A stretch of 32,693 bases of DNA from a virus, in IMG/VR virus record IMGVR_UViG_3300028364_000094, positions 1 to 32,693 of that record, one strand, 5' to 3'. The position numbers and the translations under genes are program-made. Numbering within the stretch: the first letter of the stretch is position 1; every line of letters begins with the position of its first letter. Shown one piece after another: positions 2,186 through 32,347 of the stretch. The notes below the pieces were generated by a model, which saw only the letters and a program-made list of their open reading frames with translations, was not told the DNA's origin and ran no database searches.

Positions 2186-5100
2186 ATGAGTATGCAAATA
2201 ACACAAGCTGGTGAAAGTAATTTACTGCCTTCTGAATTCAAAACATCAAACTTTCTTCCTGACATTTTTAAAACAGAAATCAATCAAGAATTTTTAAAGT
2301 CCACCTTGGATCAATTGATGAGTCAAGGCACGCTTGAATCTGTAAACTCGTTTTGGGGAAGGATACGAGGGTCGTCATTCATGACCAGCGTTGATGTATT
2401 CAATAAAGAAAATGCGATTAGACGAGAGAATTTTCAGTTTGCTCCGGGCTGGCGATTAAATTATCCAGAGCGTGAACAGAACATATCATTTATCAAATTC
2501 TTGAACCAATTGGAAAAAGATGGATTTGCATCTGATCAAACTGATTCATTCATGTCCGGCACTGCGGATACCATGGACTTCCATATCGACCTGAGCAAGT
2601 TTTCGGATTACAAAACATATTACTGGTTGCCAGGATATGTACCAGTATGCAACATTCAAGCCACTGTTGGATCACCAATTGACATCGACGACGTTGTTCA
2701 ATTCAACTATTATACAACCCCTGTTCTTGAAAATAGCAAGACACTGACATTGTTGAATGACATGCAGATTGTATTTGTTGGTGACAACGTAACTTCCACA
2801 TCTGGTGACTTTGAGACTGACACTGTATACATGGTCAAGGGCGTAGGAACGTCAGTTATTCAATTGATTCCCATGTATACTCTTGTGTCTGGTATTCCAG
2901 ATATACTATACACCATCCCATTTGTTGGTAATTTAAATTTCGGATACCTTCCTTATTATGATAACTGGAAGGACTACCCAGTTGATCAAACTGTGATCAA
3001 GGACTACTTAACAGTTGAAAAGGGAGGCACTGACCAATGGGGCAGAAGCAATTACTGGTATCACATTGACTTATTGAAGTCAGTATGTGAGTTTACTGGA
3101 CTGTCAATTGATAATATTTCGGACAGTAAGTTTCAAGCAAAATACCCCATTATTGAATACAAGCTTGGAATACAATTAAACAATCAACATGTCAACACCA
3201 AGTTCCAAATGGATTGGATTGTGGATGGCGTATCATTAAATGATTTTACAGTGACGGCAACTTCAATTGAGTTTGGAGATATTCAACTTGCATTGAATGA
3301 TAAAATCATGTTGAGAAATTTCTCTAAAATCTACCAAGTTGAAAACACCGGGTCGGCACTTGCATTAGTGGAAATATTTTCTTCAGTGGACTTTGAATTG
3401 AAGGATGGGGCATTTGCATTCAATACCAACATTCAGACTGTCAAGCAAAATATAGATGTAATATGGGATGGTGAACACTGGCAGTCGTGTCAGATCAAAG
3501 ACTCTCAATCCAAGCCCATGTTATTTGATCTATACGATGAGCTCAGAGAAGATACAGGCAAGAGTGGTTATATCTTGGATTATGATAGAAACCCGTACTT
3601 GGTCGTTAACCCCGAACTGGGATTTGCCGCCACAGTGGTAAACGGAGTCTCACAATTTAAAATCGGCGATATTGACCATCAAATGTTCATGATTGATGGA
3701 GAGGTGAAGAGCCTCTGGGTGCCAATGTCAATTGCACAACGTACACCAAAATCAAAAACCATAATTGTACCTGAGAATAATGCACAATTTCAATTTGAGA
3801 TTTCTCAAGGACATGAATTTCAGTCCAATTGGACGATTGGAGTAACTGATAGCGGCGTCAATTGGTTTGCAGTGGATCAACAAGTGGGTGCGTTTCCAGT
3901 TAGTGATAGCAGTGTGTCATTCTATTATGGTATGGACAATCAAATCACGTATCTGAACGCAGAGTCGGCCAATGACGTACTTGGTTTCACTGACCCCGCT
4001 GGAAATCAGACTGGTATTCAAGTAACCCAGTCGGGCCCAATCTACTCAGTGGTATTGACCAATGACTATGTATATGATACATTGTATTATACAACTGGTA
4101 CTTCAGAATTTTCCGGTGTAATTACGGTTGCAAACCACATGCAATCCACTGCACAAGTCAAAATCAATGGTAGAACTTCCGATGACTGGACAATACAAGA
4201 CAACAACATCACAATTGGCCAGCCACTCAAAATAAACGATATTATTGATGTAACGTGGCTTTCTTCTGAATCATTTGATACTGAAGTACCTGACGGTGCA
4301 AAGTTTAATTCATTGAATGACTTACTGCCAACAACCATCCTATATTCTGATATTGAGTCACATGTGGCAAACCAATTGCAGTCCTCACCAAGTGGTGATA
4401 ATTATTGGCTGTCATCACGCGATCACACCCACGGTGGATTTATTCGTAGACAGCATCATGATGTGACTAATTTGGTCACCAGTGAAATGAATCAAGACTA
4501 TAATATATTTCAAAAATTGAAAACTATCGAAACTGACTACTCCATATTTAAGACCTCATTTAATGCCAAGGTAAAGCAACTGTGGAGAAGCCAAGTATTC
4601 GATAGTGTATCTGAACTAGTAGATCAAGCCCTCCAGGAGATCTCCGCAGGTAAACAGGAAGATTTTAAATATTCAGACTCTGATATGCTATATTTCAATG
4701 AGTATGATTCACATGTGTTTCCTCCTGATTTTTTGTCATATGTCCGTATATTTGCAATACCCGAATATAACCCAACTGATTTTGTATATTCCATATATAT
4801 AACAATAGCGGGGGTACAACGAATTTTACGAAAAGATATAGATTATACCATTGATTCTTCTTCTGGAGAATTCAATATTAATATTTCGTCTCAATTGGCG
4901 GACGCCTTCATAACTACTGAATTCGACGACTACATTCTTCAAGAAGATGACATATCATTCATTGATACAGAAGTCCCTGTGTTATTATCAGAAATTGAAG
5001 TTAAGATCTATGAAAGATCAGTATGTTTCATACCATATAGTTCTGTCAAATTGGGGTTGACTGGTGCATACGATGTTCTAACTCGAAATAAGATTATACA

Positions 5101-8100: not shown

Positions 8101-11100
8101 TGACAGTCTTAGAACTAAATATATCTCAGAAAACTCCAATGCAGCATGGGGCAATTGGATTAATGCATATTTTAATTCTGATTACTCAGTGTCTGGGTTG
8201 AATACTGAGTATCTAGAAACAGAAATAGCCGCAATAACCACTGAAACATATGAGCAGGATATGACTGACTTATTGCAAAACGATATTGACATCATCAATT
8301 TAATAACAGGTGAATCATATACAATCGCAACCTTGCCAATTAGTGCATTGGATGAACAAGAAGCAATCGCGGCAATGGTGGCCTTTGACTATATGTCCAA
8401 TCTATCTTCCAAATATAAAACGGGAGATAAGGTTACTGCAAATTTGGTAATCACATCTGAGAGTGTAGTGGCTCCCAAAGTCTGGAAAATAGCAGAAATA
8501 GTGGAGAGAATAAACCAGGCGTTTGCTGCTTCTCAGTTGACTCGCGTGACTGCAAGTGCCACTTCTGACCTCAGACTGCGAATAACCAAGGTCACCACCA
8601 CACTGGATTTAACTCTGGTATTATCAGCTGACACTGCTAATGAGGAAGTTGGATTCCCGGCGGCAGGGACAACGGCCACTGGTGCACAATCAACACAGAA
8701 CCAAACTATAAATCTGACCCTGGCCGACGTAGTGTCTCAAATTAATACCGCAAATATATCCGGGATATCAGCACAGGTTGCGAGCTCATCGACTGGCAGT
8801 GTGCTGAAAGTGATAAGTGCCAACATCAGAATGTCAATTGGGGATACCGCATTCCTTTCAATAGTTGGGATAAGTGCCGGTGACTATGTTGCCTCCAGTT
8901 CAGAAGTCACAGTGGATGTTGAACTTACTCTGTTTGACGTGATCAAGGCCATTAATGATTTTGGATTACCCAATATTCTAGCAAAAAACATCAATAATAC
9001 CATTCTCATTGAGACTTCCAACTTTAATTTCGTTGTCGGGAATGGGTCAGCCAACATATTCCTAGGACTCAGAGAAGTCGAGCGTACTCTTTCGGGGATT
9101 GTGTCAAATGAATTCACCGAAGAAGACTGGGAATTAATCAGTGACCCTTTGAATTTTTCAGCCTGGGTGTATGACAACTATGTGAGTTCTGTGAAACCAG
9201 ACGGCTGGAACGTATATCAGACATTTGATTTTAATCTTGAGATTGCAGAAATATGTGAAGGTATTGAATCAGGCGATGATGTATTGATAACAACAATGAC
9301 CCCGCATAATCTGAGAATTGGTGACTATTTGATTGTTGTGAATTCCACTTCTGTCCCATCAGTGGATGGAATACATCAAGTAATGTCGGTCATCAATGCA
9401 CAGTCATTCATGATAGATGCATATATTGCTCAAAAGGGTTTTGTGGGCAAGGTAATGCTGTTTCAACCAACGCGCTTCACCGACACTGCCGCATTATTTG
9501 ACAGCTTGAATGACCCCGCATATCGACAGTCCAAGTCTGGCTGGAGACCTGGTATGTATGCGTTTGTTGATTCGTATATTGATGATTCAGGAACTCAATT
9601 TGATATCCCAGCAGTATACCAATGTGTCGGAGATACTTTCGACGCCGAAAGTGTATATTTTGACTTAGTGAGAACAGGTAATGATAAAGTAGACAACTCA
9701 ATATTGAAGAACGCAATTTCATATGTATATGACAGTCAGAAAACAATAACTGAACTGGAAGTATACGACCCTGCCAAGGGCATTATCCCAGGAATAGCAG
9801 ACTCCGAATTGAACTTTAAAAATTCATATGATACCGCAGTATATAATAATACCACTGATAACAGCGAAGTTACTAGTGATACTGACTACTGGGCAGAAAA
9901 CTTCCAAGGACAGACTTGGTGGGACCAGAGCAATGCAGTCTATATTGACTATGAGCAAGGACCACTTGAATATAGACAAGGAAACTGGGGTAAACTATTC
10001 CCAACATCCACGATTGATGTATACGAATGGACTAAGTCACCAGTTGATCCCGAATCATTTAATGATTATGTTGCATCATCTCCAGTAGAAGTGTTTATTG
10101 AAGGGATTCCACTCAGCGGAGAACCATACTATACATTCGATGAATATGACAATAGACAATATTACTGGTCAGAGTCAACAACATTCAACTTTAAAACTGG
10201 GAATGACGAAGTATTTTACTATTTCTGGGTCAAGAACAAGACAACAATCCCCAATACCAAGAGATTATATTCTGTATTACAAATTGCTGACATAATTGAA
10301 AACCCCAATGCCTACAATGTAAACTGGGTTGCTTCAGTGTCACCTGATACTATATTAATATCCAATTTGGAAGACTGTGTCCCTTGTCAAGGTGCTGTGA
10401 TTAAATTACAATTTGATAAGTATACAACTGAAAAGCACAACGAATATCTACTGCTCAGTGAAGGCGGCACCCATTCAAATATTCCAGAATGGCTTCACAT
10501 GGGGCTCAGGGACAGTTTGGCCGGCAGGGATAAGTTGACAATAGACAAGAAACATACGCCATGGCGATTCCGCAACACATATTACCCCGGTGATGTTGTA
10601 TGGTTTGAAGGAGGATATTGGATCACATATCAGAAACATGTTGCTTACACACGGGCATTCCTGTCAGATTCCAATTACAATATCATCACTGCTGAAAATG
10701 AATATTGGTTGGAAATTGACAGCTTTAGTATACCCAATTCACCAATTGACTCAGACAATCCATGGACTGAGATTGTGGATTATGAAAGAGTAACTGACTT
10801 CAGTGAATATCCAATATCAGAATTTGGATATGCATGGGACACATATGGGTGGGATAGGCGTCCCTGGGACCTGGAAACAATTTCACTTTCAAATACACAA
10901 GATGGCGTAATCCGCATATCAGCTGGGCTTGTGGTTCCTGATCACAATCTACATCGATTTGTCAGATACGGAGTTGATATATCTCCTAGACAGTCTTGGA
11001 TAATTGATTTACCAATGGCAAGAAAAACCGCTGTTGGAAAACTGAATAGACAGTTTTCCAACATCAACTTAGTGGACCAAATTCCAGATGCAATTGCAAA

Positions 11101-12262
11101 TTTGTCAGGCACAATAGAGTTAGGATTCCATGAATACACGTTGTCTGATTTATGGGTGTACGTTGATTGGTCGCCGCTGGGATTGACATACAAATCCAAG
11201 ACGGAATACTCTGTCATGACAGAGGGTGATATATCCAGTATTGCGGATGCAACAGTTGGTGATCTAGTTAAAGTCAAGAAGTCACATGATTCTGACTCTG
11301 TAAATAGACGTACTATATTTAGACTGACCCCAATCGGATGGGAGAAAGTATTCAAGGAAAAAGCCACTGTGCAATTCTGTAGTACATTATGGGATGCTAT
11401 CGGCAATGGCTTTGGATGGGACAATGCAAACTTTGACATAAACGTGTATGATTTGGACACACCTAGATTGTTTACTCCTCTACTGGACATGATACGAGAT
11501 AAAATATTCATTGGTCAATATTCCACGTTGTATAGTGATTTTTGGTTTGTAATGCTGAAGTATATGCTGGGCGAGCAGCCCAACTTAGAATGGGCAATCA
11601 AGAGCTCATATATCAAATATCAATTGAATGAACGACTATCAACTGACGATAAAGTATTCAAGAAATACCCATACTCAACTCTGATGGATTATTTGAATGA
11701 CACCAAACCATATCGCGCCAAGGTTCGTACTATTGACGACAACCGAACTCTATTAGAAAAAGTGGACATGTCTGGCAGAGATGGACTGGTAATTCAAATC
11801 AATCACTTGATAAATCCTCAACTATTGTTCTTGGCTGCTGAAAACCAAGATTGTCTAATAGATGACAACAGTGGAGATAATCTGTCTAATGAAAACATAA
11901 CTGACGGCACTGACCCGATTATAACGCAGACTATAATTCAAGTTGATAATAATAATATTTCCTACCTTGTTATTGATCCAACGTTGGATTACCAATTCAC
12001 TATAGCATCAGACATTGATATGTTAGCTACTGTCATCGCTTTCGATGAAGAGATTGAATGTATATATGGCACTGGTGCAGGTGTAATGTGGATGGGTTCT
12101 GAGAGAATTGAGTTTGGGTATGCCATCGGAAATGTAATATATGATGTTCTCAGAGGAACAAATATCACAACACCAATGAATCACGCTACTGGTGATATTG
12201 TATTCTTGAAAGAATCACCGACTGTAATATTGACCAACGTACATGAGATTGAGACGGTATAA
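2186..12262 (+). CDS. Giant virion structural protein (tail/fibre-associated), 3358 aa
   Basis: A 3358-residue open frame, nearly a third of the window. It reads as a mosaic of beta-rich phage structural modules rather than an enzyme. A His-rich patch (DHTHGG...HH) lies near residue 746. Short carbohydrate-binding-like W..N..Y..GD.V.. segments lie near residues 1782-1806 and 2791-2818. Three FlgK/FliD-like repeats occupy about 2100-2300. A segment of the HGL..GD.V type (LRIGDYLIVV) follows near 2376. The C-terminus (about 3111-3185) carries a FWFVMLKYML...W..KSSYI...KPY..KVR stretch that recurs in very large virion proteins of T4-like marine phages. No signal peptide or membrane helix is seen. 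AGGA at 2179-2182 is only 3 nt from the first ATG, so the second ATG (2192) may be the true start. Late expression is inferred from the promoter-like motif at 2152. Adsorption or tail structure is the likely role; the exact virion position is unknown. Confidence 0.8.
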   Translation: MSMQITQAGESNLLPSEFKTSNFLPDIFKTEINQEFLKSTLDQLMSQGTLESVNSFWGRIRGSSFMTSVDVFNKENAIRRENFQFAPGWRLNYPEREQNISFIKFLNQLEKDGFASDQTDSFMSGTADTMDFHIDLSKFSDYKTYYWLPGYVPVCNIQATVGSPIDIDDVVQFNYYTTPVLENSKTLTLLNDMQIVFVGDNVTSTSGDFETDTVYMVKGVGTSVIQLIPMYTLVSGIPDILYTIPFVGNLNFGYLPYYDNWKDYPVDQTVIKDYLTVEKGGTDQWGRSNYWYHIDLLKSVCEFTGLSIDNISDSKFQAKYPIIEYKLGIQLNNQHVNTKFQMDWIVDGVSLNDFTVTATSIEFGDIQLALNDKIMLRNFSKIYQVENTGSALALVEIFSSVDFELKDGAFAFNTNIQTVKQNIDVIWDGEHWQSCQIKDSQSKPMLFDLYDELREDTGKSGYILDYDRNPYLVVNPELGFAATVVNGVSQFKIGDIDHQMFMIDGEVKSLWVPMSIAQRTPKSKTIIVPENNAQFQFEISQGHEFQSNWTIGVTDSGVNWFAVDQQVGAFPVSDSSVSFYYGMDNQITYLNAESANDVLGFTDPAGNQTGIQVTQSGPIYSVVLTNDYVYDTLYYTTGTSEFSGVITVANHMQSTAQVKINGRTSDDWTIQDNNITIGQPLKINDIIDVTWLSSESFDTEVPDGAKFNSLNDLLPTTILYSDIESHVANQLQSSPSGDNYWLSSRDHTHGGFIRRQHHDVTNLVTSEMNQDYNIFQKLKTIETDYSIFKTSFNAKVKQLWRSQVFDSVSELVDQALQEISAGKQEDFKYSDSDMLYFNEYDSHVFPPDFLSYVRIFAIPEYNPTDFVYSIYITIAGVQRILRKDIDYTIDSSSGEFNINISSQLADAFITTEFDDYILQEDDISFIDTEVPVLLSEIEVKIYERSVCFIPYSSVKLGLTGAYDVLTRNKIIQCHDGSTHSMTNTELFDTDSMDFDVVAAALYDMEVRIKNNIQYSHATVEKYKIELINSQGVSATQLFAQYMKNEFLEWKSTMSIDDITPIAYMPGDNTTWNFKLDNEYGIAYWKQFYQLVFGTSRPDSHPWELFGLTAKPNDWDSRFSWTDPAKRIDLIKALKIGNPVDNIPNPRIAFSKWDSEISQLVDASGNLLLPLDLDVVSSPDPIDASILFVSGDGTSPEETQWMNSSGYQFALVRTIAKMRPSVIFNDLWNVSGNSLSASTSTGCEESQLDLTYSLGASIIPDLTEFYNDADISIKVLSDYLTTANVIHMGGFTTLNNIGLQLDGSYQSGKSLVAADSFNLSLEKSIASPSIIYSGVKLVKTINNAVKVYGYDSQADSFQYLMPMKKSKNSAVSIGDASVLNYSAYDIIPTKMAYGTEIRKRQDLYDFLMGLSKYYESIGFTDMNWHDQATLIIQWSLDSADNDNQYINGLDNQFGFQLSSGMVDNFKSDTGSKMYSRDLIQLDMRSVLVIRNEQLTDIKLQTISEAMLIELDIVEYEHLIAINSRSSSDDLIYDPVIGLGNHRIKCVGKRTRNWNGRLEAPGYIVTDQSLINSFESANREITHDVNQSAPNFLNPLTGFTGAANIGFQKKSYLELMTPNARFLFDKERNRIKGTTQSLEAFVKNQNVFNSGANGEAHEEWLIRMGSYGDVSSENILEFSLEPGLAKTSPQLIRLSGTQRKDQTSDLIIDVSQGDNRYVSGDFMNFVPMISSQSSLNNRIAYSTVYENWNRKAGTPLLTEADFYLKDTRQLESVYDTSADYATISTWNANFAYIQGDIVRYSGKVHKLVIDSTGVSPGQDILAVKGNVTFPIVPSGTSLVLGSAPTVQDDVTFYTIPLTKASTGTSYNNIQVVGTRADPSVPSGTLFNIDGNTITLSKSQSNVITTSAIITGDVLNPVIEGSTGKKLSISGATIDFESFINTFRNVTALDILSDGLEVFDQTTGPDLALARIEAIDSLRTKYISENSNAAWGNWINAYFNSDYSVSGLNTEYLETEIAAITTETYEQDMTDLLQNDIDIINLITGESYTIATLPISALDEQEAIAAMVAFDYMSNLSSKYKTGDKVTANLVITSESVVAPKVWKIAEIVERINQAFAASQLTRVTASATSDLRLRITKVTTTLDLTLVLSADTANEEVGFPAAGTTATGAQSTQNQTINLTLADVVSQINTANISGISAQVASSSTGSVLKVISANIRMSIGDTAFLSIVGISAGDYVASSSEVTVDVELTLFDVIKAINDFGLPNILAKNINNTILIETSNFNFVVGNGSANIFLGLREVERTLSGIVSNEFTEEDWELISDPLNFSAWVYDNYVSSVKPDGWNVYQTFDFNLEIAEICEGIESGDDVLITTMTPHNLRIGDYLIVVNSTSVPSVDGIHQVMSVINAQSFMIDAYIAQKGFVGKVMLFQPTRFTDTAALFDSLNDPAYRQSKSGWRPGMYAFVDSYIDDSGTQFDIPAVYQCVGDTFDAESVYFDLVRTGNDKVDNSILKNAISYVYDSQKTITELEVYDPAKGIIPGIADSELNFKNSYDTAVYNNTTDNSEVTSDTDYWAENFQGQTWWDQSNAVYIDYEQGPLEYRQGNWGKLFPTSTIDVYEWTKSPVDPESFNDYVASSPVEVFIEGIPLSGEPYYTFDEYDNRQYYWSESTTFNFKTGNDEVFYYFWVKNKTTIPNTKRLYSVLQIADIIENPNAYNVNWVASVSPDTILISNLEDCVPCQGAVIKLQFDKYTTEKHNEYLLLSEGGTHSNIPEWLHMGLRDSLAGRDKLTIDKKHTPWRFRNTYYPGDVVWFEGGYWITYQKHVAYTRAFLSDSNYNIITAENEYWLEIDSFSIPNSPIDSDNPWTEIVDYERVTDFSEYPISEFGYAWDTYGWDRRPWDLETISLSNTQDGVIRISAGLVVPDHNLHRFVRYGVDISPRQSWIIDLPMARKTAVGKLNRQFSNINLVDQIPDAIANLSGTIELGFHEYTLSDLWVYVDWSPLGLTYKSKTEYSVMTEGDISSIADATVGDLVKVKKSHDSDSVNRRTIFRLTPIGWEKVFKEKATVQFCSTLWDAIGNGFGWDNANFDINVYDLDTPRLFTPLLDMIRDKIFIGQYSTLYSDFWFVMLKYMLGEQPNLEWAIKSSYIKYQLNERLSTDDKVFKKYPYSTLMDYLNDTKPYRAKVRTIDDNRTLLEKVDMSGRDGLVIQINHLINPQLLFLAAENQDCLIDDNSGDNLSNENITDGTDPIITQTIIQVDNNNISYLVIDPTLDYQFTIASDIDMLATVIAFDEEIECIYGTGAGVMWMGSERIEFGYAIGNVIYDVLRGTNITTPMNHATGDIVFLKESPTVILTNVHEIETV
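8490..9080 (+). repeat. Three degenerate FlgK/FliD-like repeats inside the giant protein
   Basis: Residues about 2100-2300 of the giant protein contain three units of about 65 aa. Each has a helix (EIVERINQAF, DVVSQINTAN, DVIKAINDFG) followed by a variable strand pair ending in LRITKV, LKVISA or ILIETS and then a short L/F-G turn. Units of this type occur in hook-associated proteins and some phage fibres. DNA identity between the units is low, so they are old. Confidence 0.5.
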
Positions 12263-21249: not shown

Positions 21250-21964
21250 TGGACATTTACATTTCATATCAGTGCCCAGAAGCGGTGTCACTGTATTAAC
21301 TGAACTCATGGGAATACTGCGAACAAGTTCCAAGAGAACCATGTATAGCCCATTTCATACAATTCCTATTCGAGAATCTTTTATTCAGGAATTACAACAT
21401 GGTCATGACTATGTTATAAAGTCACATGCTGTCGATCAATGTAATTTCGCCAGTATCGACTATGGAATATATCATAACATACGGTTGCTGAGAAGAAATT
21501 TAGTGGAATCTTGTTTGAGTTTGGCATTGGCCAGAACCACAGGACAATGGGGGTGGAATGATTATTCCACCCAGTGTTCTCCAATTGTTCTGGCCGATGC
21601 GGTCATTGAAAATGCAGTTGTGTCACAAATACAATCAGTAAATTCCATGATGGAAAATACATATAACATAGAGTATGCCAATACTTTATTTTATGAAGAT
21701 ATCCCATGGCACGCCACAGTAAAAGAAATTATTGCGTCGGTTTCATTCGATAAGTGGCATCTACCATTTCTGACAGACGACATTAATGGATCAACTATTC
21801 AAGAACTGGGTATGAATACGCAACGAGCACATGCAAAGTTCATTCAAATCAGCAACGAACAACAAGCACATGAATTATGTTTGAAATTTCTAAATGAATC
21901 CCAAACAAGTGAATTATACCAGTTGAATCAATCAGGAGTAATTGTAGCATGGCATGGTGCATAG
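21230..21964 (+). CDS. Sulfotransferase-like protein, 244 aa (copy 1, TTG start)
   Basis: A PAPS-dependent sulfotransferase-like protein. FISVPRSGVTVL near the N-terminus is the 5'-phosphosulfate-binding loop (PRSG.T.L), and RLLRRNLVESCLSLAL about 75 residues later fits the 3'-phosphate-binding segment. A KSH motif lies between them. The region has no ATG. TTG 21230 is preferred because GGAG (21217-21220) is 9 nt upstream; an earlier in-frame TTG at 21215 has no comparable site. It shares its layout with the gene at 24203, including LVE..LSLA....GQW, so the two are paralogues. The host must supply PAPS. The acceptor is probably a sugar hydroxyl, by inference from neighbouring genes. Confidence 0.65.
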   Translation: MAYTRTDGHLHFISVPRSGVTVLTELMGILRTSSKRTMYSPFHTIPIRESFIQELQHGHDYVIKSHAVDQCNFASIDYGIYHNIRLLRRNLVESCLSLALARTTGQWGWNDYSTQCSPIVLADAVIENAVVSQIQSVNSMMENTYNIEYANTLFYEDIPWHATVKEIIASVSFDKWHLPFLTDDINGSTIQELGMNTQRAHAKFIQISNEQQAHELCLKFLNESQTSELYQLNQSGVIVAWHGA

Positions 21965-23160
21965 AACCTTTTATTAATGCGTCACATACTACAGATGGAC
22001 ATTATCAACCATGTTGTATTGCACAAGTTGATAAAACGGCCGGGAGAACCACTGAGAACCTCACCCCAATCGAAGCCATGAATACTCAATATATGCAAGA
22101 CTTGCGGGCAGAGATGAACGCTGGTACTCCCGGTAAGTTGGTAAACCACGCCTGCTCAAACTGTATATTCAATGAGTCACATGGGGTAAAGTCAAGAAGA
22201 CAAAAACAAAACAACAAATACCAAAATGAAAAGACAATGGCCACTGTCAATCGAACAACATCGGATCCCAGTTCTGCGATTGTCAAGCAAGACCTTGAGT
22301 ATGTCAATCTAAAAATGCTGGGGAATATATGCAACCTTAAATGTGTAATGTGCAATCCTGCATCTTCTTCAAAAATTGCTGCAGAATACAAAAAACATGG
22401 TATGTTGGCTGCAACCCAGCCAATGATTGCCAATCCAATGGCCACTGACAACCGAGTTAATTATTTGAATAATATACTTGAAATATTAGAAACTGTTAAT
22501 AGATTCAGCCTAATAGGAGGAGAAGCATTTGTCCACCCTGACTTTGAATATATATTTGAAAAAATACTCACAGTGAAGAACATTCACAAGCTGGAATTGT
22601 TTATTATTACAAATGGCACGGTTATCCCAGATTATGTACTGAAGTCAGCTGATAGGTTTAAAAACCTATTGATAAGCTTTAGTGTGGACGGTATTGGAAA
22701 GAAAGCAGAATATATTAGAACAGGCACTGAATGGGAAGTAGTGGATGAAAATATTAAACTGACTCTACAATCCAATGCGTCTATTGGGTTCAATGTAACA
22801 GGACAAGTATTAAATGCCGGATACTTACATGAAGTATACGATTATATTGTGAATTCATTGGGTCTTCCGGCCGAAACAGCCAGCTGGGACAATATAGTTA
22901 CCAACCCACAGATGCATAACATGATAAATTTACCAGACAAACTCAAGGAACAATATCTTTCGGCATATAATGACAGTGGTATGCTCGCCATTCCAGGCCT
23001 CAAGACACAAATCAACACATTAAAGCTACCACAACAATCCAGCCTTGAGTTCACCCGATTTATAAAGAATAGGCATCAATTTGACAAGATCAGGAATACT
23101 GACTTATTGGAATGCTATCCTGAATTTATCGATTATCAATACTTATTGGAAAATAAATGA
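21949..23160 (+). CDS. Radical SAM protein with N-terminal twitch/SPASM-like domain, 403 aa
   Basis: A radical SAM enzyme. CNLKCVMC (C128, C132, C135) is the CxxxCxxC motif that binds the catalytic 4Fe-4S cluster, and IGGEAFVHPDF (G190, G191, E192) is the SAM-binding GGE motif. The N-terminal 75 residues hold C4, C22, C23, C69 and C72 in the pattern WC..P...............PCC...C..C, which is the layout of twitch-domain radical SAM proteins whose auxiliary cluster domain precedes the barrel. AGGAG 10 nt before the ATG and a 16-nt overlap with the sulfotransferase indicate coupled expression. The substrate is unknown. Such proteins modify peptides or sugars (epimerisation, crosslinking, dehydrogenation). 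Confidence 0.82.
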   Translation: MAWCIEPFINASHTTDGHYQPCCIAQVDKTAGRTTENLTPIEAMNTQYMQDLRAEMNAGTPGKLVNHACSNCIFNESHGVKSRRQKQNNKYQNEKTMATVNRTTSDPSSAIVKQDLEYVNLKMLGNICNLKCVMCNPASSSKIAAEYKKHGMLAATQPMIANPMATDNRVNYLNNILEILETVNRFSLIGGEAFVHPDFEYIFEKILTVKNIHKLELFIITNGTVIPDYVLKSADRFKNLLISFSVDGIGKKAEYIRTGTEWEVVDENIKLTLQSNASIGFNVTGQVLNAGYLHEVYDYIVNSLGLPAETASWDNIVTNPQMHNMINLPDKLKEQYLSAYNDSGMLAIPGLKTQINTLKLPQQSSLEFTRFIKNRHQFDKIRNTDLLECYPEFIDYQYLLENK

Positions 23161-24206
23161 AAAGTAACATTGGAATATACAACAAGAAAATTAGGCACAT
23201 TCATTTAGAGCCCACAACTGACTGCAATGCCAGATGCCCACAGTGTCCAAGAACATGGAAGGCTGGTCTACAAACTCATCCCAGCCTTCCAATTGATGAA
23301 TGGACCGCAGAAGAACTGCGTGAAGTATTATCGCATGATTTCTTTTCGGGCGTTGAGCGAGTATTAGTAAATGGTAACTTTGGTGATATTGTCAAGCATT
23401 CAAATCCAAGACAACTTATACAAGTATTGATTGATAAAGATCTCGATACTATTGAATTACGCACCAACGGGGGAGCACAGTCCATTGATTTTTGGAAATG
23501 GTTGGGGACAATTGACAACTTGACAGTGGAGTTTGGAATTGACGGATTAGCAGACACCCATCACTTATATCGGCGAAATACTAGATTTGACGTAGTGATC
23601 AAAAACGCCCGAGCATTTATTGAATCAGGTGGCAACGCATCATGGGCCATGACTGTGTTTAAACATAATCAACACCAAGTCGATGAATGTAGAGAACTAT
23701 CTAAGGAAATGGGGTTTACTAATTTCAAAATGAGACCCAGTACTCGATGGCATAAACACCAACCCTTGTCAATACTAGATAAGAATCAAGTGGAATCATA
23801 TAAGCTGGAACCTGCTGACTCAGTTAAACCAGACAATTTACCCAAACAGCCAGCTCAATTGACTGATATTGACTGTGTTGTAACATATGGCAGTGTATAC
23901 CTGTCTGGTACCAAAAGATTATGGCCATGTTGTTGGACCGAACAGCGATATATGGACTCATTGATGAACGACAGTCTTGACACAGACGATTTTATTATGG
24001 AGTTTGTGAAAAAGATGGGGCTTCCTGAAGACTTCAATCAAATTACGAAATATTCCATTGATCATGTTATTAACAGTGGTCTATTCAGAACAGTGGAACA
24101 GTCATGGTCCACTACTCCATTCAAAGCATGTTCTTCCATGTGTGGTAAATCGTCCTTATTTAAATTGCAACAGTCACTCACTGAAAACACGGAAACAAAT
24201 AAATGA
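23157..24206 (+). CDS. Radical SAM protein with SPASM-like C-terminus, 349 aa
   Basis: A second radical SAM enzyme, different in build from the one before it. CNARCPQC (C23, C27, C30) starts right after a short leader strand (IRHIHLEPTTD), as in SPASM-type proteins. The barrel continues with LRTNGG (about 103-108) and FGIDGLADTHHLYR (about 126-139). The C-terminal third carries DIDC, LWPCCW and ACSSMCG, enough Cys for one or two auxiliary Fe-S clusters. It is joined to both neighbours by ATGA overlaps in the same AAATAAATGAAAA context. Two distinct radical SAM enzymes side by side suggest consecutive steps on one substrate; the substrate is unknown. Confidence 0.82.
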   Translation: MKSNIGIYNKKIRHIHLEPTTDCNARCPQCPRTWKAGLQTHPSLPIDEWTAEELREVLSHDFFSGVERVLVNGNFGDIVKHSNPRQLIQVLIDKDLDTIELRTNGGAQSIDFWKWLGTIDNLTVEFGIDGLADTHHLYRRNTRFDVVIKNARAFIESGGNASWAMTVFKHNQHQVDECRELSKEMGFTNFKMRPSTRWHKHQPLSILDKNQVESYKLEPADSVKPDNLPKQPAQLTDIDCVVTYGSVYLSGTKRLWPCCWTEQRYMDSLMNDSLDTDDFIMEFVKKMGLPEDFNQITKYSIDHVINSGLFRTVEQSWSTTPFKACSSMCGKSSLFKLQQSLTENTETNK

Positions 24207-24925
24207 AAAATATACATGTCGTTGGGATTCCCAGATCCGGGTCCACTCATATGTCCAATGCCATATCCAATCATGCTCAAGGATATTCTTCTTTCTTTGA
24301 GCCGTTCAATCCGGGAGACACAGGGTCCATTGAAACCATTCAAGACAACATCCTGACTTCCAATAATTCAAACAATCTAGTAATCAAGTCGCATGAGACA
24401 CATTTAAGGCACTTGGCCACATGTGATTTGCTCAGTCAGTTGAATTATAATGAATGGTATAATATTTTACTGATCCGAACCAATTTAGTGGAAACCATGC
24501 TGAGTTTGGCAGTATCTGATGCCACTGGACAATGGGACACATATTATTCACATGATCCCATTACCATTACCTATAGGAAATTGTTCATGTATGCCAGCAG
24601 CATTGTGGCACAATTGGATAGCTTGTTTGAAAACCAATATCATATTAGGTACGATGCAGTACATATGTATGAGACATTACCCAAAGACACTTGGGGACTA
24701 TTTCAAAAAATTAATATTCCAGACGTTACTGTCAATCAAATTGGACAAGGTACGCCTCCGGTCCAATTTGCCAATGCCAAGTCTCAAACTATTGCCAATT
24801 TTGAACAAGCGGTCACAATGTCGAATAATATTTTGGCTGCTCAGTCTCCCAAACATATGACAATCAAAAATGGTATCATCACTGCATTCAGCCTGGCCAC
24901 ACATACTTGTCCTATACTGTCATGA
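24203..24925 (+). CDS. Sulfotransferase-like protein, 240 aa (copy 2)
   Basis: Paralogue of the gene at 21230. The 5'-phosphosulfate-binding loop is VGIPRSGSTHMSNAI (P10 to T15), closer to the classic PRSGST form than in copy 1. KSHE follows near residue 61, then ILLIRTNLVETMLSLAV for the 3'-phosphate. The LVE..LSLA....GQW stretch is shared with copy 1. It overlaps the radical SAM gene upstream by ATGA and ends six bases before the early promoter at 24931, so it closes the decoration operon. Soluble. The reaction is predicted to be sulfate transfer from PAPS. The acceptor is unknown. Confidence 0.68.
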   Translation: MKNIHVVGIPRSGSTHMSNAISNHAQGYSSFFEPFNPGDTGSIETIQDNILTSNNSNNLVIKSHETHLRHLATCDLLSQLNYNEWYNILLIRTNLVETMLSLAVSDATGQWDTYYSHDPITITYRKLFMYASSIVAQLDSLFENQYHIRYDAVHMYETLPKDTWGLFQKINIPDVTVNQIGQGTPPVQFANAKSQTIANFEQAVTMSNNILAAQSPKHMTIKNGIITAFSLATHTCPILS

Positions 24926-25292: not shown

Positions 25293-26903
25293 ATGTACGT
25301 TGATGCATTACTAGATCGAAAAAAAGACATCATTCACGTGGTTGAGCGATTGAATGGTAAACGTAAATATGTTCAATATCCGGCTCAATATGTCTTTTAT
25401 TATCCCAGTCAGAATGGCAAGCATACAAGCATTCACGGAGACAAGCTTGCCCGCGTGGTAAGTAATACATCCAAGAAGTTCAATATCGAGAAGAAGATTC
25501 ACGCCGATAAATGGCTACATGAAAGTGACACAAATGTCCTGTTTCGATGTCTAAGTGATCACTATGCTGGCAAAGATGCACCCAAACTGAATATTGGGTT
25601 CTTTGATATTGAGACCGCGTTCTGTAAGAAACGTGGGTTTGCCCCACCTGACGACCCATTTAATTCCATAACGGCAATTGCGGTCCACTTGAATTGGTTG
25701 GGGAAAACAGTATGCTTGACTATCAAGCCTCCCAGTATGAGTGAAATTGAAGCACAAGGAATTGTTGCTAAATTTCCCGACAATGTCATGTTGTTTGCCA
25801 CTGAAGAACTCATGTTACTGGCATTTCTTGAACTAATTGCCGACGTTGATGTGCTATCTGGGTGGAACTCTTCTGCCTTTGATATTCCATACTCAGTGAA
25901 TAGGGTAATCAGAATATTGAGCAACGAGCATGCCAAGAAATTCTGCCTATGGGGTGAATCTCCCAATCGTAGACAATTTGAACGTTATGGAAAACTTCAA
26001 GAAACATACGACCTAGTTGGGATTCAACATCTTGACTACTTTGACCTATACCGAAAGTATACCTATCAAGAGATGCACAGTTATAGTCTTGATGCCATTT
26101 CAGAACATGAACTGGACGAGCGCAAGGTTGAATATGACGGTACGTTGGATCAACTGTACAACAATGACTATGAGAAGTTTATTCGATACAGTTTACAGGA
26201 CGTTGATCTGATCGTGAGGTTGGATAAGAAACTGCAATTTATTGATCTGGCAAATGTAATCGCACATGACAACCTTGTGCTATTGCCAACTACCATGGGA
26301 TCAGTTGCGCAGATTGATCAGGCTATTTTGAATGAAGCACATCGCAAGGGACAAGTAGTTCCTGACCGAGAACGATCATTCAAAGACTCATCAGTGGCCG
26401 GTGCATACGTTGCATATCCCAAGAAAGGACTGCATGACTGGGTTGGTAGCATGGACTTGAACTCACTTTATCCCAGTATTATTCGAGCATTGAACATGAG
26501 TCCCGAATCACTCGTGGGACAAATCAGACCAACATACACTCATGAATATATTCAACATAAGATTGAACATGAGAAGAAGGGGTTGGCCGAAGCATGGGAA
26601 GGCAAGTTTGCCAGTCTGGAATATGACCTTGTAATGGCACGAGACAAGGTCAAAATCATGCACATTGACTTTTCTGATGAATCTGTAATTGAAGGCACTG
26701 GTGCCGAAATTTACCGATTGATATTTGAAGAACGTATGCCATGGGTGCTTTCATCCAATGGTACGATATTCAACAGTGATCATGCAGGATTGATTCCTGG
26801 TCTGCTGGACAGATGGTACAGTGAACGCAAGGATTTGCAGAAGAAAGCCAAGGCGTACAAAACGCTGTCAAGTGGTATGGAAATACCACTAAGACTACAA
26901 TAA
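25293..26903 (+). CDS. 43A: T4-type DNA polymerase, N-terminal half (gp43A): exonuclease and palm motif A, 536 aa
   Basis: Family B DNA polymerase of the T4 gp43 type, first half. Exo I is FFDIETA (D105, E107), Exo II lies in LSGWNSSAFDIPY, and Exo III in YSLQDVDLI. Motif A, SMDLNSLYPSII, has the catalytic D388. A fingers-side helix (DRWYSERKDLQKKAKAY) follows, after which the frame ends at TAA 26901. Motifs B and C are in the next gene, in the same frame, after a second stop (TGA). T4 gp43 is about 900 aa; the two parts here sum to 944. AAGGA lies 7 nt before the ATG. The two chains would have to associate to give an active polymerase. Split gp43 is known in some T4-like phages. Confidence 0.9.
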   Translation: MYVDALLDRKKDIIHVVERLNGKRKYVQYPAQYVFYYPSQNGKHTSIHGDKLARVVSNTSKKFNIEKKIHADKWLHESDTNVLFRCLSDHYAGKDAPKLNIGFFDIETAFCKKRGFAPPDDPFNSITAIAVHLNWLGKTVCLTIKPPSMSEIEAQGIVAKFPDNVMLFATEELMLLAFLELIADVDVLSGWNSSAFDIPYSVNRVIRILSNEHAKKFCLWGESPNRRQFERYGKLQETYDLVGIQHLDYFDLYRKYTYQEMHSYSLDAISEHELDERKVEYDGTLDQLYNNDYEKFIRYSLQDVDLIVRLDKKLQFIDLANVIAHDNLVLLPTTMGSVAQIDQAILNEAHRKGQVVPDRERSFKDSSVAGAYVAYPKKGLHDWVGSMDLNSLYPSIIRALNMSPESLVGQIRPTYTHEYIQHKIEHEKKGLAEAWEGKFASLEYDLVMARDKVKIMHIDFSDESVIEGTGAEIYRLIFEERMPWVLSSNGTIFNSDHAGLIPGLLDRWYSERKDLQKKAKAYKTLSSGMEIPLRLQ

Positions 26904-26915
26904 TGAAAGAGAAAT

Positions 26916-28142
26916 ATGGATATTAACTGGAAACAGCTCAATCAGATATTTGAAACAGGGACCAGGGCTGAACTTGAGACATTTTGTTCAGATAATCAAT
27001 TGGAAATCCGCGATGGTAAAATATATGCTAAATTCGACGTTGACGAAGAATATGCATTCTGGGATAAGCGTCAACTAGTACGGAAAATTCTACTAAATTC
27101 ACTTTATGGTGCACTCTTAAATGTTGGCAGCAGATTCTTCGATGCAAGACTGGGACAGAGTGTGACACTGACTGGACGAAGCATTGTGAAACATATGTCA
27201 GCACAGGTAAATGAAACCATTGCTGGTGAGTATGATCATGTCGGAGAGTCAGTAGTTTATGGGGATACCGATTCCGTCTACTTCAGCGCATATCCCATCT
27301 TGAAACCACAAATTGATGCGGGCGAAGTCACGTGGAACAAGGACACAGCCGCTGAATTCTATGATGCAGTGTCAGATGAAGTCGATAAAACTTTTGTGAA
27401 TTATATGGCAGACTCACATAACTGTCCCAGTCGATTGGGTGGGATTATCAAAGCAGGTAGAGAAATTGTGGGAAGCCGTGCCCTGTTCATTACCAAGAAG
27501 CGGTATGCAATTCTGGTATATGACAATGAGGGTTTTCGAGAAGATCACAGTGGTAAACCAGGGTATCTAAAAGCCATGGGTTTGGATCTCAAGCGCAGTG
27601 ACACTCCTTCTTATATGCAAGAATTTCTTAAAGTGATCTTGATGGATGCCTTGACTGGCGTTCCAGAAGAAGAAATTATTAGAAAGGTCAAAGATTACAG
27701 AGAAGAATTCAAGAAGATGCCGCCATGGGAAATGGGAACTCCAAAACGTGTGAATAAATTGACCATATACAAGTCCATGGAATATGACAGCAGTGATGGC
27801 ATTGAAAGATTTACAGGCAAGGCCACTATGCCGGGGCATGTCAGGGCCGCGATCAACTATAACCGTCTTCGTAAAGTGATGAATGACAACCATAGTATGG
27901 AAATATCAGATGGTATGAAAACCATCGTGTGTAAACTCAAAGACAATCCCATGGGCATCACCAGTATTGGTATTCCCACTGACGAGAATAGAATACCAGA
28001 ATGGTATAAAGAACTGCCGTTTGATCTTGATGCCATGGAACATGCCATTGTCACTAAGAAAGTGAAAAATTTACTGGGTGTGTTGAAATGGGATCTTTCT
28101 TATTCCAAAGTAAATGCAACATTCAACAGTCTTTTTGATTGA
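26916..28142 (+). CDS. 43B: T4-type DNA polymerase, C-terminal half (gp43B): motifs B and C, thumb, clamp-binding tail, 408 aa
   Basis: Second half of the split polymerase. After about 45 residues with no clear counterpart in the intact family (rich in Glu/Asp), the frame enters DKRQLVRKILLNSLYGALL (motif B, K57). VYGDTDSVY follows with the catalytic pair D117/D119 (motif C), then ITKKRYAIL. The thumb follows, and the protein ends in TFNSLFD, matching the clamp-binding end of T4 gp43 (SLFDMFDF). The ATG is 12 nt past the stop of the first half, in the same frame, with only a weak AAAGAG Shine-Dalgarno. The N-terminal ~45 residues may be residue of an insertion or a newly evolved interface. 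Confidence 0.9.
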   Translation: MDINWKQLNQIFETGTRAELETFCSDNQLEIRDGKIYAKFDVDEEYAFWDKRQLVRKILLNSLYGALLNVGSRFFDARLGQSVTLTGRSIVKHMSAQVNETIAGEYDHVGESVVYGDTDSVYFSAYPILKPQIDAGEVTWNKDTAAEFYDAVSDEVDKTFVNYMADSHNCPSRLGGIIKAGREIVGSRALFITKKRYAILVYDNEGFREDHSGKPGYLKAMGLDLKRSDTPSYMQEFLKVILMDALTGVPEEEIIRKVKDYREEFKKMPPWEMGTPKRVNKLTIYKSMEYDSSDGIERFTGKATMPGHVRAAINYNRLRKVMNDNHSMEISDGMKTIVCKLKDNPMGITSIGIPTDENRIPEWYKELPFDLDAMEHAIVTKKVKNLLGVLKWDLSYSKVNATFNSLFD

Positions 28143-28203: not shown

Positions 28204-28599
28204 ATGAGCAAGACCACCATGATTCATGTGAAATTTCAGAAAGAAGGAATTCACAAGTATCCAGCAGCACTAACCGACCCCAAGTTGGCAACAGGAGGAT
28301 GGGACGATGTTTCATTTCTTGGTCATCCGCATCGGCATATGTTCCACTTCAAAGTGGCAATCCAAGTATTTCATAATGATCGAGACGTTGAATTCATTCA
28401 AACAAAACGATGGTTGGAAAGTCTATATAATACTGACGTATTGGAATTGGATTATAAATCGTGTGAAATGATTTCAGATGAATTAGCAACAACTATTGCT
28501 GCAAAGTTTCCAAACCGGGCTATGGAAATCACTGTTGAAGAAGATGGTGAAAATGGTTCCACAACATTTTACTCACAAGACGAATTTTCAGGAGAATAA
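28204..28599 (+). CDS. queD: QueD/PTPS-fold protein (6-carboxytetrahydropterin synthase-like), divergent, 131 aa
   Basis: Its outline fits the PTPS/QueD fold: an N-terminal strand with a candidate zinc ligand H17 (EGIHKYP), then H43.R.H45 (HPHRHMFHFKV) for the other two zinc ligands, DVEF..TKRWLESL in the place of DF.+LK..., KSCEMISDELA where QueD has NPTSE.LA, and a final strand VEEDGENG. QueD makes CPH4 on the way to preQ0, and folE (32433) and dpdA (29370) nearby support this. However, the catalytic Cys before H.H and the Asp-His pair of E. coli QueD are not visible here, so it may be a reduced or altered enzyme. AAGGA precedes the ATG, behind the consensus promoter at 28139. Confidence 0.58.
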   Translation: MSKTTMIHVKFQKEGIHKYPAALTDPKLATGGWDDVSFLGHPHRHMFHFKVAIQVFHNDRDVEFIQTKRWLESLYNTDVLELDYKSCEMISDELATTIAAKFPNRAMEITVEEDGENGSTTFYSQDEFSGE

Positions 28600-29369: not shown

Positions 29370-30878
29370 GTGACTGATAAACCAATTATTGACTTGACAG
29401 CGAATAACAAAGACTATTCTGTTTTTCTGCCAAGTATCAGCACCTTCTATAGTATTTTTGTGTCCAAACAGCAAACCTCGGGTGAGACTTATGTCCCGCC
29501 CGAGCGTATACCTGCAGGATTTGAAAATGGAGTGGAAGGATGTAATTTCCTAAATGAAGACCAAGCATACTACAAATACAAATGGGGACTGTATTCTGCT
29601 GGGCACGCACAATTAAAACTCGACAAGGCAAATGTGGATGATGCCATGGTGCAGAATCGAGACAAGGACAAAACATTCATATTGGGTGACAGTGGTGGAT
29701 TCCAGATCATCAAGGGAGTCATCAAATGTGACTGGGATGAATTCAAGACAGATGACAGTCTGCGATCCACTATTCTAAATTGGCTGGAACACACCGCTGA
29801 TTATAGTATGATTTTGGATATCCCAACACAAGCCGCAGACGCAGGGTTCCGTGAACGTACCCAAATCCGTGACTTTGAACAATGTCTTGACTATACCAAG
29901 CACAATTGTGAATGGTTCTTGAAACATCGCAAGGGCAAGACCAAATATTTGAACGTTATGCAGGGAAGAAGTCTGTATGAAGCTGAAGCTTGGTATGATG
30001 GTGTAAAGGATTACCCGTTTGAGGGCTGGGCATTTGGGGGACATACCAAGAGCGATATCAACATTGCTCTTAGAATATTGCTCAAGATGCGTGATGACAA
30101 GCTATTAGAGCAGGGAGAGCGCGATGTCTTGCATTTTCTGGGAACTAGCAAGCTGGAATGGGCAGTCGCATATACGGCGCTTAAACGTGTTCTAAGACGT
30201 ACTGTGAATCCTGACATTGAAGTTACATTTGATTGCGCAAGTCCCTTTATTGCCACGGCCAAGGGACAATTGTATACTCAGCATGTTCATGTCCAAGACA
30301 GATTTGGGTATGTTATGGATTCGGCAGTTGACAGTAAAAAACTGTCCGGTAGCAAAGTACCATTTCCATGGAGTTCTCCAATTGGGGATAGAATGACCAT
30401 GGGGGATATCTGTTGGTATGCGCCGGGTATGCTCAACAAGATTGGCAAAGAAGGCAAGACATCATGGGACAGTTTCAGTTATTTTCTACAAATGTCACAT
30501 AATGTATACCAACATATTGAGAGTGTACAGCGAGCAAATCAATTAACTGACGCGGCCTTGGCCCAACATGATATCAATCATATGAACTTTAAACCAAGCA
30601 AAAAAGGCAAAGGTATTCACTTGGATACATGGGTACCTGATCGTGCATTGTATATGAGTCAATTCATTGATGACTTGTTTCAGTCTGAAACACCAATGAC
30701 CATGCTGGACGAGGCACAGAGTCTCATGGCTGCATTCAACGGTAAGAATTCAGTGTCAAGTGGCGCCAAATCATTCAACAGTCTGTTTGAAACAGTTGAA
30801 ATAGATGAGGATGCAATTGACTTGGAAGATCAAGATCTGGCTTATGAAATAATGAGTAAAATTAGCCAAACTTCTTGA
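29370..30878 (+). CDS. dpdA: DpdA-family 7-deazaguanine DNA base-exchange enzyme (TGT homologue), 502 aa
   Basis: A TGT/DpdA-family protein. FILGDSGGFQIIKG (D107) matches the (D)SGGFQ active-site loop of tRNA-guanine transglycosylases. NVMQGRS (N195-S201) takes the place of the G(I/V)VQGG loop, WAFGG (W220-G224) that of the A(I/L)GG loop, and TFDCASPF (D288) that of the D.CVxPxR nucleophile segment. HFLGTSKLEW matches the YLMGVG loop. No CxCxxC zinc site is seen. Phage members exchange guanine in DNA for preQ0-type bases. GTG start at 29370 with AAAAGGA upstream. The last ~50 residues are an acidic tail with FNSLFE (469-474), a near copy of the polymerase clamp-binding end. The stop overlaps the next -35 box. 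Confidence 0.82.
   Translation: MTDKPIIDLTANNKDYSVFLPSISTFYSIFVSKQQTSGETYVPPERIPAGFENGVEGCNFLNEDQAYYKYKWGLYSAGHAQLKLDKANVDDAMVQNRDKDKTFILGDSGGFQIIKGVIKCDWDEFKTDDSLRSTILNWLEHTADYSMILDIPTQAADAGFRERTQIRDFEQCLDYTKHNCEWFLKHRKGKTKYLNVMQGRSLYEAEAWYDGVKDYPFEGWAFGGHTKSDINIALRILLKMRDDKLLEQGERDVLHFLGTSKLEWAVAYTALKRVLRRTVNPDIEVTFDCASPFIATAKGQLYTQHVHVQDRFGYVMDSAVDSKKLSGSKVPFPWSSPIGDRMTMGDICWYAPGMLNKIGKEGKTSWDSFSYFLQMSHNVYQHIESVQRANQLTDAALAQHDINHMNFKPSKKGKGIHLDTWVPDRALYMSQFIDDLFQSETPMTMLDEAQSLMAAFNGKNSVSSGAKSFNSLFETVEIDEDAIDLEDQDLAYEIMSKISQTS
30774..30791 (+). other. Clamp-binding-like motif FNSLFE in the DpdA tail
   Basis: Residues 469-474 of DpdA read FNSLFE. The polymerase ends in FNSLFD (28122-28139), and the DNA is 16 of 17 bases alike (TTCAACAGTCTGTTTGA against TTCAACAGTCTTTTTGA). 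In T4 the gp43 C-terminus binds the gp45 clamp, so this is a plausible clamp-tethering peptide; this function is inferred. Confidence 0.55.
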
Positions 30879-31246: not shown

Positions 31247-32347
31247 ATGACAATTTATATTATTGATTTGGAGTCAATTGAGAGTAGATATACTTCTCAA
31301 TGGAAAGCATATCTACCCGCCCAAATAAAAAAATACACAGGGGAGAAAGTTGTTGAAATCTCAGGTGGAACTGATATTCCTGCCACAACTTCTCCGGGTG
31401 CATTTTTAAACTTTGGCGGTACCAGTATCTACAAAGCCAGACAACTCGAAACAATCAGTAACATGATTGTTTCGGGTACAGTCAAAGATGGTGACTATTT
31501 TCTATACACTGATGCATGGAACCCAACTGTTATTCAACTGAAATATCAACTGGAGTTATTGGGCATTAATGCCAAAATCGGCGGCATGTGGCACGCAGGT
31601 TCATATGATCCAAATGACTTCTTGGGAAGGATAATTGGGGACAAGCCTTGGGTGCGATCAGCTGAGCACAGTATGTTCTCTTGTTATGACCATAATTTCT
31701 TTGCAACACATTATCATGTGGAACTATTCGCCAATGGTGTTTTATCTTGGCAAGATGGCGAAGGATGGTATGAGACTCGACCCGAAGCAATCAATAGCAC
31801 CATTAGGCAAGTGGGCTGGCCCATGGAATACCTAAGTAAGGAGTTGAAGTCTTTTGGAAAATCCAAGAAGCGAGACTTAATACTATTCCCACATCGGATT
31901 GCCCCAGAAAAACAAGTGGAAATTTTTAAGGACTTGAAATCTTGGCTACCTAATTATGAGTTTGTAGTATGCCAAGATGAAAATCTAACCAAAGAACAAT
32001 ACCATTCCCTACTGGCATCTGCAAAGATGGTGTTTAGTGCAAACTTACAAGAAACATTGGGAATATCATGGTATGAAGGTGCATTACTTGATGTACTACC
32101 ATTAGTACCAGACCGCCTGAGTTATAGTGAAATGAATTTAAATGACTCATTCACTTACCCAAGTGAATGGACTGAATGTTCAAGGGCATATGACCAGAAT
32201 AGAAGTAAATTGATGGCTCGGATCACTTATATGATGACCAATTATGAAACATTGGTCAGTGATTTAAAACCACAAACAGAATTCATGACCGAACGATTCT
32301 TCCATGGTGATGAATTATACCGAACTGTGAGTAATCGCAGTAAATAA
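31247..32347 (+). CDS. GT-B-fold glycosyltransferase-like protein, 366 aa
   Basis: Resembles group-1/GT4-type glycosyltransferases. The N-terminal domain has WNPTVIQLKYQLELLGI and KIGGMWHAGSYDP. The C-terminal Rossmann half has RDLILFPHRIAPEKQVEIFKDL (about 205-226), the Y..LLASAKMVFSANLQETLGISWYEGALLDVLPLVPD run (about 252-287), which is the donor-binding region with the EXXXXXXXXE-type Glu pair (E268 and E276), and a helical end. No membrane segment. Sitting between dpdA and folE behind an early promoter, it may act on modified DNA as T4 alpha/beta-GT do, but a role in host-surface or virion glycosylation is equally possible. AAGGA precedes the ATG. Confidence 0.65.
   Translation: MTIYIIDLESIESRYTSQWKAYLPAQIKKYTGEKVVEISGGTDIPATTSPGAFLNFGGTSIYKARQLETISNMIVSGTVKDGDYFLYTDAWNPTVIQLKYQLELLGINAKIGGMWHAGSYDPNDFLGRIIGDKPWVRSAEHSMFSCYDHNFFATHYHVELFANGVLSWQDGEGWYETRPEAINSTIRQVGWPMEYLSKELKSFGKSKKRDLILFPHRIAPEKQVEIFKDLKSWLPNYEFVVCQDENLTKEQYHSLLASAKMVFSANLQETLGISWYEGALLDVLPLVPDRLSYSEMNLNDSFTYPSEWTECSRAYDQNRSKLMARITYMMTNYETLVSDLKPQTEFMTERFFHGDELYRTVSNRSK
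32340..32347 (+). promoter_or_regulatory. Possible late-type TAAATA motif before folE
   Basis: GTAAATAA includes the stop of the glycosyltransferase (TAA 32345-32347) and lies 30 nt before the small ORF at 32371, a spacing like that of the three late motifs. It is short and overlaps a stop codon, so chance is a serious alternative. Confidence 0.2.

Follow-up and report, generated by a model that had tools for sequence, protein, structure and literature searches.

A polymerase-type tail motif conserved on DpdA-like DNA transglycosylases encoded beside a predicted phage sliding clamp

Clamp ligands and DNA-modifying enzymes of other phages

The DpdA protein of phage 9g is reportedly a 7-deazaguanine DNA transglycosylase (work attributed to Hutinet et al. 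2019). Up to 27% of dG is modified in this phage (PMC6884629). In T4, the DNA polymerase gp43 and the proteins gp55 and gp33 bind the sliding clamp gp45 by highly similar, swappable hydrophobic-acidic C-termini; the linker of these gp45 ligands tolerates change, and an internal motif is still functional (PMC2988020). The α-glucosyltransferase of T4 co-purifies with gp45, and its modification share reportedly depends mostly on promoter strength and translation and not on clamp binding (PMC13216743). In bacteria, the motif that binds the beta clamp is a C-terminal QLxLF (PMC4549789).

We analysed the whole of the virus record IMGVR_UViG_3300028364_000094 of IMG/VR (positions 1 to 32,693, hereafter the window), in which a DpdA-like protein carries a tail motif of the polymerase type. 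Like the tails of T4/RB69 gp43, gp55 and gp33, this motif is short and hydrophobic-acidic and sits on a variable, probably unstructured linker; unlike those gp45 ligands, it belongs to a putative base-exchange enzyme and usually lies about 34 residues inside the C-terminal end. The RB69 gp43 ends in KKASLFDMFDF, and SLFD is common to this end and to FNSLFD, the end of the window polymerase. As with T4 α-glucosyltransferase, which is bound to gp45, the window DpdA is a putative phage DNA-hypermodifying enzyme for which we infer an association with the clamp, but the T4 enzyme acts on hydroxymethylcytosine whereas the window DpdA is predicted to be a base exchanger with the TGT fold. It resembles the 9g DpdA in its predicted TGT fold, in the aspartates of DSGGFQ and FDCASP and in the Que/FolE genes near its relatives, and differs from it in being about 500 residues long, with the putative clamp-tail extension.

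The polymerase, clamp and DpdA genes of the window

The first-pass annotation had placed a shared motif in the polymerase and DpdA tails, with 16 of 17 bases identical, and a candidate clamp gene directly upstream of DpdA; the motif sites and their identity were confirmed, and the candidate gene is predicted to encode a PCNA fold. Table 1 lists the features concerned.

Table 1. Features of the polymerase-clamp-DpdA region of the window
Feature	Coordinates	Strand	Basis or remark
Family B DNA polymerase, N-terminal ORF (exonuclease and part of polymerase domain)	25293..26903	+	Pfam PF03104, PF00136; PHROG 262
Family B DNA polymerase, C-terminal ORF, ends FNSLFD	26916..28142	+	Pfam PF00136; PHROG 1918/262
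FNSLFD, extreme C-terminus of the polymerase C-terminal ORF	28122..28139	+	polymerase ends ...KVNATFNSLFD, then stop
Small ORF, phrog_17812 (function unassigned in PHROGs)	28204-28599		between polymerase and clamp ORF
PCNA/gp45-fold sliding clamp (predicted), 250 aa	28605..29357	+	Foldseek on AF2 model; phrog_12062
DpdA-like DNA transglycosylase, TGT fold (predicted), 502 aa, GTG start	29370..30878	+	VIA-align; invariant residues
Predicted-disordered part of DpdA tail holding the motif	30747..30833	+	model residues 715-743, pLDDT <50
FNSLFE, candidate clamp-binding motif, DpdA residues 469-474, in acidic predicted-disordered tail	30774..30791	+	

The DpdA tail reads ...GAKSFNSLFETVEIDEDAIDLEDQ..., with FNSLFE 34 residues short of the C-terminal end, and the tail peptide that contains the motif, AKSFNSLFETVEID, has its polymerase counterpart in KVNATFNSLFD. 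At the DNA level the two sites agree in 16 of the first 17 bases and in 16 of 18 across the six codons. When the 17-base pattern TTCAACAGTCTNTTTGA was searched for in the 32,693-base record, exactly two sites were found, in the polymerase and DpdA tails, and none elsewhere; the reversed control pattern gave 0 matches. The window polymerase is encoded by two ORFs in the same frame, parted by two consecutive stops at 26898-26915 (LRLQ, stop, stop, KRNM), and since it is split in this way the FNSLFD tail belongs to its C-terminal half. A single polymerase ORF of >800 residues is present in 81 of 96 relatives, and in PA5oct a homing endonuclease gene interrupts the polymerase.

We modelled clamp and DpdA with AF2 as their natural read-through chain (DpdA residue = model residue - 255), which gave a mean pLDDT of 89.6. 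In structural alignment by VIA-align, the DpdA part matched the Thermotoga maritima TGT 2ash with a Z of 20.8 (301 residues, rmsd 4.5) and the archaeosine TGT 1iq8 with a Z of 20.2. Residues D107, S108, G109, G110 and Q112 as well as D288 are invariant in 30 diverse relatives, with D107 in DSGGFQ and D288 in FDCASP, and we take D107 and D288 to occupy the places of the two catalytic aspartates of TGT enzymes. The ORF at 29370-30878 is thus predicted to encode a TGT-fold DpdA, a putative DNA guanine transglycosylase. The protein has no Pfam match and no PDB match by profile search, and hhalign of its family profile against the 9g-type one gave a probability of 1.1, with only a 22-column patch around an Asp aligned. 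Genes resembling Que or FolE of the 7-deazaguanine pathway were found in 61 of 110 loci of relatives, and Vibrio phage 2.275.O has annotated queuosine-pathway genes downstream of DpdA; PA5oct has already been reported to hold a deazaguanine system (PMC7824862). No Que/FolE-like genes were seen within the window, whose record stops 1.8 kb past the DpdA gene.

The upstream ORF, which stops 12 bases 5' of the DpdA start codon, was compared by Foldseek through its AF2 model, and the matches were PCNA chains (best E-value 6e-11, prob 1.00, TMt 0.56-0.74 among the rows listed). Its homologues are annotated as PCNA in PAC2 or as sliding clamp beta in Phosso. Because a profile search of the PDB found no clamp up to an E-value of 1 and hhalign against RB69 gp45 gave a prob of 1.6, the assignment as a clamp rests on the fold search. 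The family phrog_12062, labelled 'unknown function', thereby gains a predicted fold and a likely function as a sliding clamp.

As for the other ORFs around these genes, the phrog_17812 family (28204-28599) is present in 88 of 110 loci and lies 3' of DpdA in 77 of those 88. We do not assign a QueD-like identity to its window member, since the likeness was noted by eye (HRHMFHFKV...DRDVEFIQTK) with a weak hhalign prob of 0.75 and found no support in Pfam or the PDB. DpdA is followed in the window by a 93-aa ORF and then by a glycosyltransferase-like ORF (31247-32347, GT-B-like by eye), which is kept 3' of DpdA: its homologues, gp167 of PA5oct among them, occur in 68 of 110 loci. This GT-B-like protein may act on the modified base. 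Two adjoining radical SAM proteins are encoded at 21949-23160 and 23157-24206 (Pfam PF04055, the second slightly under the curated cut-off), right after which 24203-24925 encodes a protein with a sulfotransferase-like start as judged by eye. A single ORF of 3358 residues occupies 2186-12262.

The tail motif in relatives and in the 9g-type lineage

Single-protein queries with the window or PA5oct DpdA returned no matches in viral contigs, so alignment-based queries were needed. Three such scans of viral contigs, each returning the best 80 matches (one of the scans had at least 582 relatives), gave the loci L006-L085, L087-L155 and L173-L248. We examined 154 distinct complete DpdAs from the listed loci and named relatives, counting identical DpdA ends once; the first set consisted of 110 loci, with six loci whose DpdA end was open omitted. 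The strict motif [FY]xx[LF]F[DEST] is present in the last 75 residues of 106 of the 154 listed DpdAs (69%), whereas the rate averaged 1.7% and never exceeded 5.2% when the residues of these tails were shuffled 500 times. Of the 110 first-set DpdA tails, 77 carry the strict motif, which has 0 matches in the 49,074 residues that make up the DpdA bodies of this set. The motif columns align unaided in a 57-row alignment of DpdAs, and across 30 diverse DpdAs the F473 column reaches a conservation of 90% or more, while the rest of the tail is scarcely conserved. Unlike the terminal motif of the polymerase, that of DpdA is mostly internal, its median start being 34 residues from the end, and the tails of motif-bearing DpdAs are acidic, with a mean net charge of about -9 over the last 35 residues. 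The closed polymerase ORFs of the relatives have [LFM]F within the last 16 residues in 134 of 134 cases. The DpdA of PA5oct, 36% identical to the window protein (tblastn), carries NSFNSLFDVDATAIEDE, and its own polymerase ends in AHFDSLFGW. The other 48 of the 154 tails do not have the strict motif, some of them showing degenerate forms such as VINAVFD (L030/L032) or ANFEE (L051).

As to specificity, we took the non-shadow ORFs with 90 or more residues from the 110 first-set loci and scanned their final 45 residues for the looser pattern [FYVIML]xx[LFM]F[DEST]. It occurs in 183 of 1770 ORFs, comprising 80 DpdAs and 83 polymerases (163/183) and 20 others, where shuffled tails would give 47 in total; in the first-set loci the motif is near-exclusive to polymerase and DpdA. 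A crude scan of the whole genomes of PA5oct, Phosso and Vibrio phage 2.275.O found 114 motif places, with no excess over a reversed control, and among the 10 places that we inspected, picked for motif likeness, none was a convincing gene tail.

The gene order polymerase-clamp-DpdA is conserved. In 106 of the 107 clamp-holding loci of the first set, the clamp gene is located 5' of DpdA on the same strand, with a spacing of at most 50 bases in 55 and at most 1100 bases in 101 of the 107 loci. The strict motif is found in 101 of 139 clamp-adjacent versus 5 of 15 non-adjacent DpdAs (Fisher p 0.006, n=154, descent ignored). A clade of seven members (L111, L147, L175-L179) has lost both motif and clamp adjacency: its DpdAs are without the motif and its clamp gene is 2-5 kb off or outside the stretch, and its polymerases, where seen, retain the ends NSFNDLFSF or NSFGDLFSF. 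The DpdA of Phosso, encoded far from the clamp gene, ends in VEGLF, and the Phosso polymerase in TTFNDLFTF.

The DpdA variants also appear to follow the tail of their own polymerase. Motif similarity averages 17.6 for polymerase/DpdA pairs of one phage against 14.9 for foreign pairs (permutation p 0.0002, descent ignored). A partial Mantel test that controlled for the body distances of DpdA, polymerase and clamp gave r 0.28 with p 0.0002 on 87 of 96 rows, the remaining 9 being left out since the DpdA segment picked in them did not coincide with the aligned motif; without the FF clade, r was 0.21 and p 0.0006. At motif position 5, where L is switched to F in some phages, polymerase and DpdA agree in 9 of 11 cases (Fisher p 3e-9), a count that is slightly noisy because one of the 11 'FF' DpdAs, L063 (AYSKFFD), is a mis-chosen window. 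Examples of matching pairs, with the polymerase given first, are NNTDLFDW and NNNDLFGW in Vibrio phage 2.275.O, TMQQFFEF and VMNEFFEF in L090, and NKFFK and KKFFS in L126. A tree-based test of the same switch, on a tree of 94 of the 96 rows (L064 and L071, with disrupted or merged ORFs, were left out), had four starred independent pairs, of which 2 changed in the same direction, 0 in the opposite direction and 2 were unchanged, too few for significance. We therefore regard the mirroring as suggestive, and the conservation of the motif, rather than the mirroring, as the firm evidence that sequence comparison provides for the tail motif. Both outcomes bear on proposals of the first-pass annotation, according to which the motif should be conserved in close DpdA homologues and each DpdA tail should mirror its own polymerase C-terminus: the former holds in the majority of the homologues, and the latter gave a positive result over a large and divergent family.

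To cover a second lineage we sampled 20 records, 16 first and 4 actinophages later, from phage 9g and a spread list comprising 226 matches. The 9g-type set consists of L086 (phage 9g), L156-L165, L167, L169 and L170. These DpdAs have about 300 residues, and the polymerase of their phages is of another family (family A) than the family B enzyme of the window. They are encoded beside or near a DnaN-like clamp gene, annotated as such in 12 of 14 cases and represented by an unannotated ORF of ~320 residues in the other 2. Their C-termini read LQDLFDE, IQELF, VMELF, IQGLF, EQRLF, EQMELF, EQQGLFV, DQPELF, TIMELF, DQPGLF (twice), AQELF, RQRRLF and KQSLW; L[FW] is thus found among the last four residues in 14 of 14, and in 12 of these a Gln lies within the three residues before it. 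Of the aligned positions, L311 does not vary and F312 hardly does. Among 50 CDS of 9g that were scanned, 1 ended in a motif of this L[FW] type, namely DpdA. The actinophage DpdAs have a C-terminal L[FW] in 0 of 6, and no clamp gene is annotated in the short flanks fetched. Like bacterial ligands of the beta clamp such as transposases and polymerases (QLxLF), the 9g-type DpdAs have QxLF, QxxLF or something close to these at their very end, and their tails fit the beta-clamp consensus; unlike those ligands, they carry the motif on a DpdA beside a phage DnaN-like gene, and the motif type is other than that of the window. As a beta-clamp-type tail stands beside a DnaN-like gene in these phages, the motif type tracks the clamp type. 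This suggests a recruitment of DpdA to the clamp that either originated in both clamp systems or was adapted to both.

Probable recruitment of DpdA to the clamp and alternative explanations

By analogy with the T4 and RB69 proteins, we consider it likely that the FNSLFE tail makes DpdA a client of the PCNA/gp45-type clamp encoded by the same phage, which would let it exchange guanines at or behind the fork. The flexible acidic tail would present FNSLFE as a clamp-binding peptide of the polymerase type, which would bind the clamp in the manner of T4/RB69 gp43, gp55 and gp33; the clamp would then hold DpdA at or behind the replication fork, where the tethered enzyme would exchange guanine bases on newly made DNA. 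The polymerase probably grips the sliding clamp through its FNSLFD tail by the same analogy, and the two enzymes might share the clamp subunits or alternate on them, so that tethering would couple base exchange to replication. Since a polymerase-type tail is present on DpdA and kept in relatives, base exchange is probably linked to the replisome. T4 α-glucosyltransferase offers a precedent for a DNA-modifying enzyme on the clamp. The further proposal of the first-pass annotation, that tethering would explain how a slow enzyme can modify a whole genome, is so far a conjecture, and the T4 enzyme calls for caution here, as clamp binding was not the main determinant of its modification share (PMC13216743). 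The tether would not be indispensable everywhere, because the DpdA of the L111 clade is without the motif.

Six residues make a short string, and their likeness in two proteins could arise by chance. However, the shuffled-tail rate of 1.7% against the 69% observed, together with the near-exclusive occurrence in polymerase and DpdA, leaves this explanation a negligible probability, and family-wide conservation of the motif refutes it. It is also very improbable that the motif is a functionless remnant or passenger, be it copied polymerase sequence or the outcome of tails co-varying since the genes of one phage co-evolve. The 16 of 17 identical bases in the window would suit such an origin, as would the loss of the motif in one clade, and the tree-corrected pair test is underpowered; but the motif persists amid tail sequence that is not conserved, among proteins down to about 30-40% identity, where passengers would decay, and the partial Mantel correlation is significant beyond the body distances.

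The same motif might instead dock polymerase and DpdA on another partner in the replisome, such as the clamp loader, the helicase or the single-strand binding protein. In its favour, the AF2 models show no docking of the tail on the clamp: in the single-chain clamp-DpdA model the DpdA tail is undocked with pLDDT <50, and so is the polymerase-tail control, with 54-58, so that the models do not discriminate between docking on the clamp and its absence. We nevertheless regard this as unlikely, since the clamp is encoded by the next-door gene in nearly all loci, the motif is of the gp45-binding type of T4/RB69, and the 9g-type tail, which is found beside a DnaN-like gene, instead suits the beta clamp. 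Somewhat more probable, though still unlikely, is a contact of the tail with the clamp without fork-coupled exchange, by which DpdA would be concentrated on DNA at any time or would compete with or regulate the polymerase. T4 gp45 also serves late transcription (PMC2988020), and T4 α-glucosyltransferase binds gp45 although binding is not dominant for its modification share (PMC13216743), both of which agree with such a contact. The results presented here fit this reading and fork coupling alike. This is a sub-case of DpdA being a clamp client, and the probability we assign to it overlaps with that of the fork-coupled reading.

In the open literature that we covered, which is incomplete, we found no link of DpdA to a clamp or processivity factor; a known enzyme class joined to a known kind of clamp motif is a combination that we did not find described. 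We lean towards a wider view, in which phage DpdAs are generally components of the replisome, with a tail fitting their own clamp and a clamp-side gene in at least two lineages with unrelated polymerases, the 9g-like laboratory phages included, and would insert 7-deazaguanines into nascent DNA while tethered to the clamp. If DpdA is indeed a clamp client, its base exchange would be coupled to replication, which could bear on partial modification as in 9g, and a second, chemically different class of DNA-hypermodifying enzymes would join T4 α-glucosyltransferase on the clamp toolbelt. A clamp motif on the product of a neighbouring gene would then offer a cheap route to further replisome-coupled modification enzymes.
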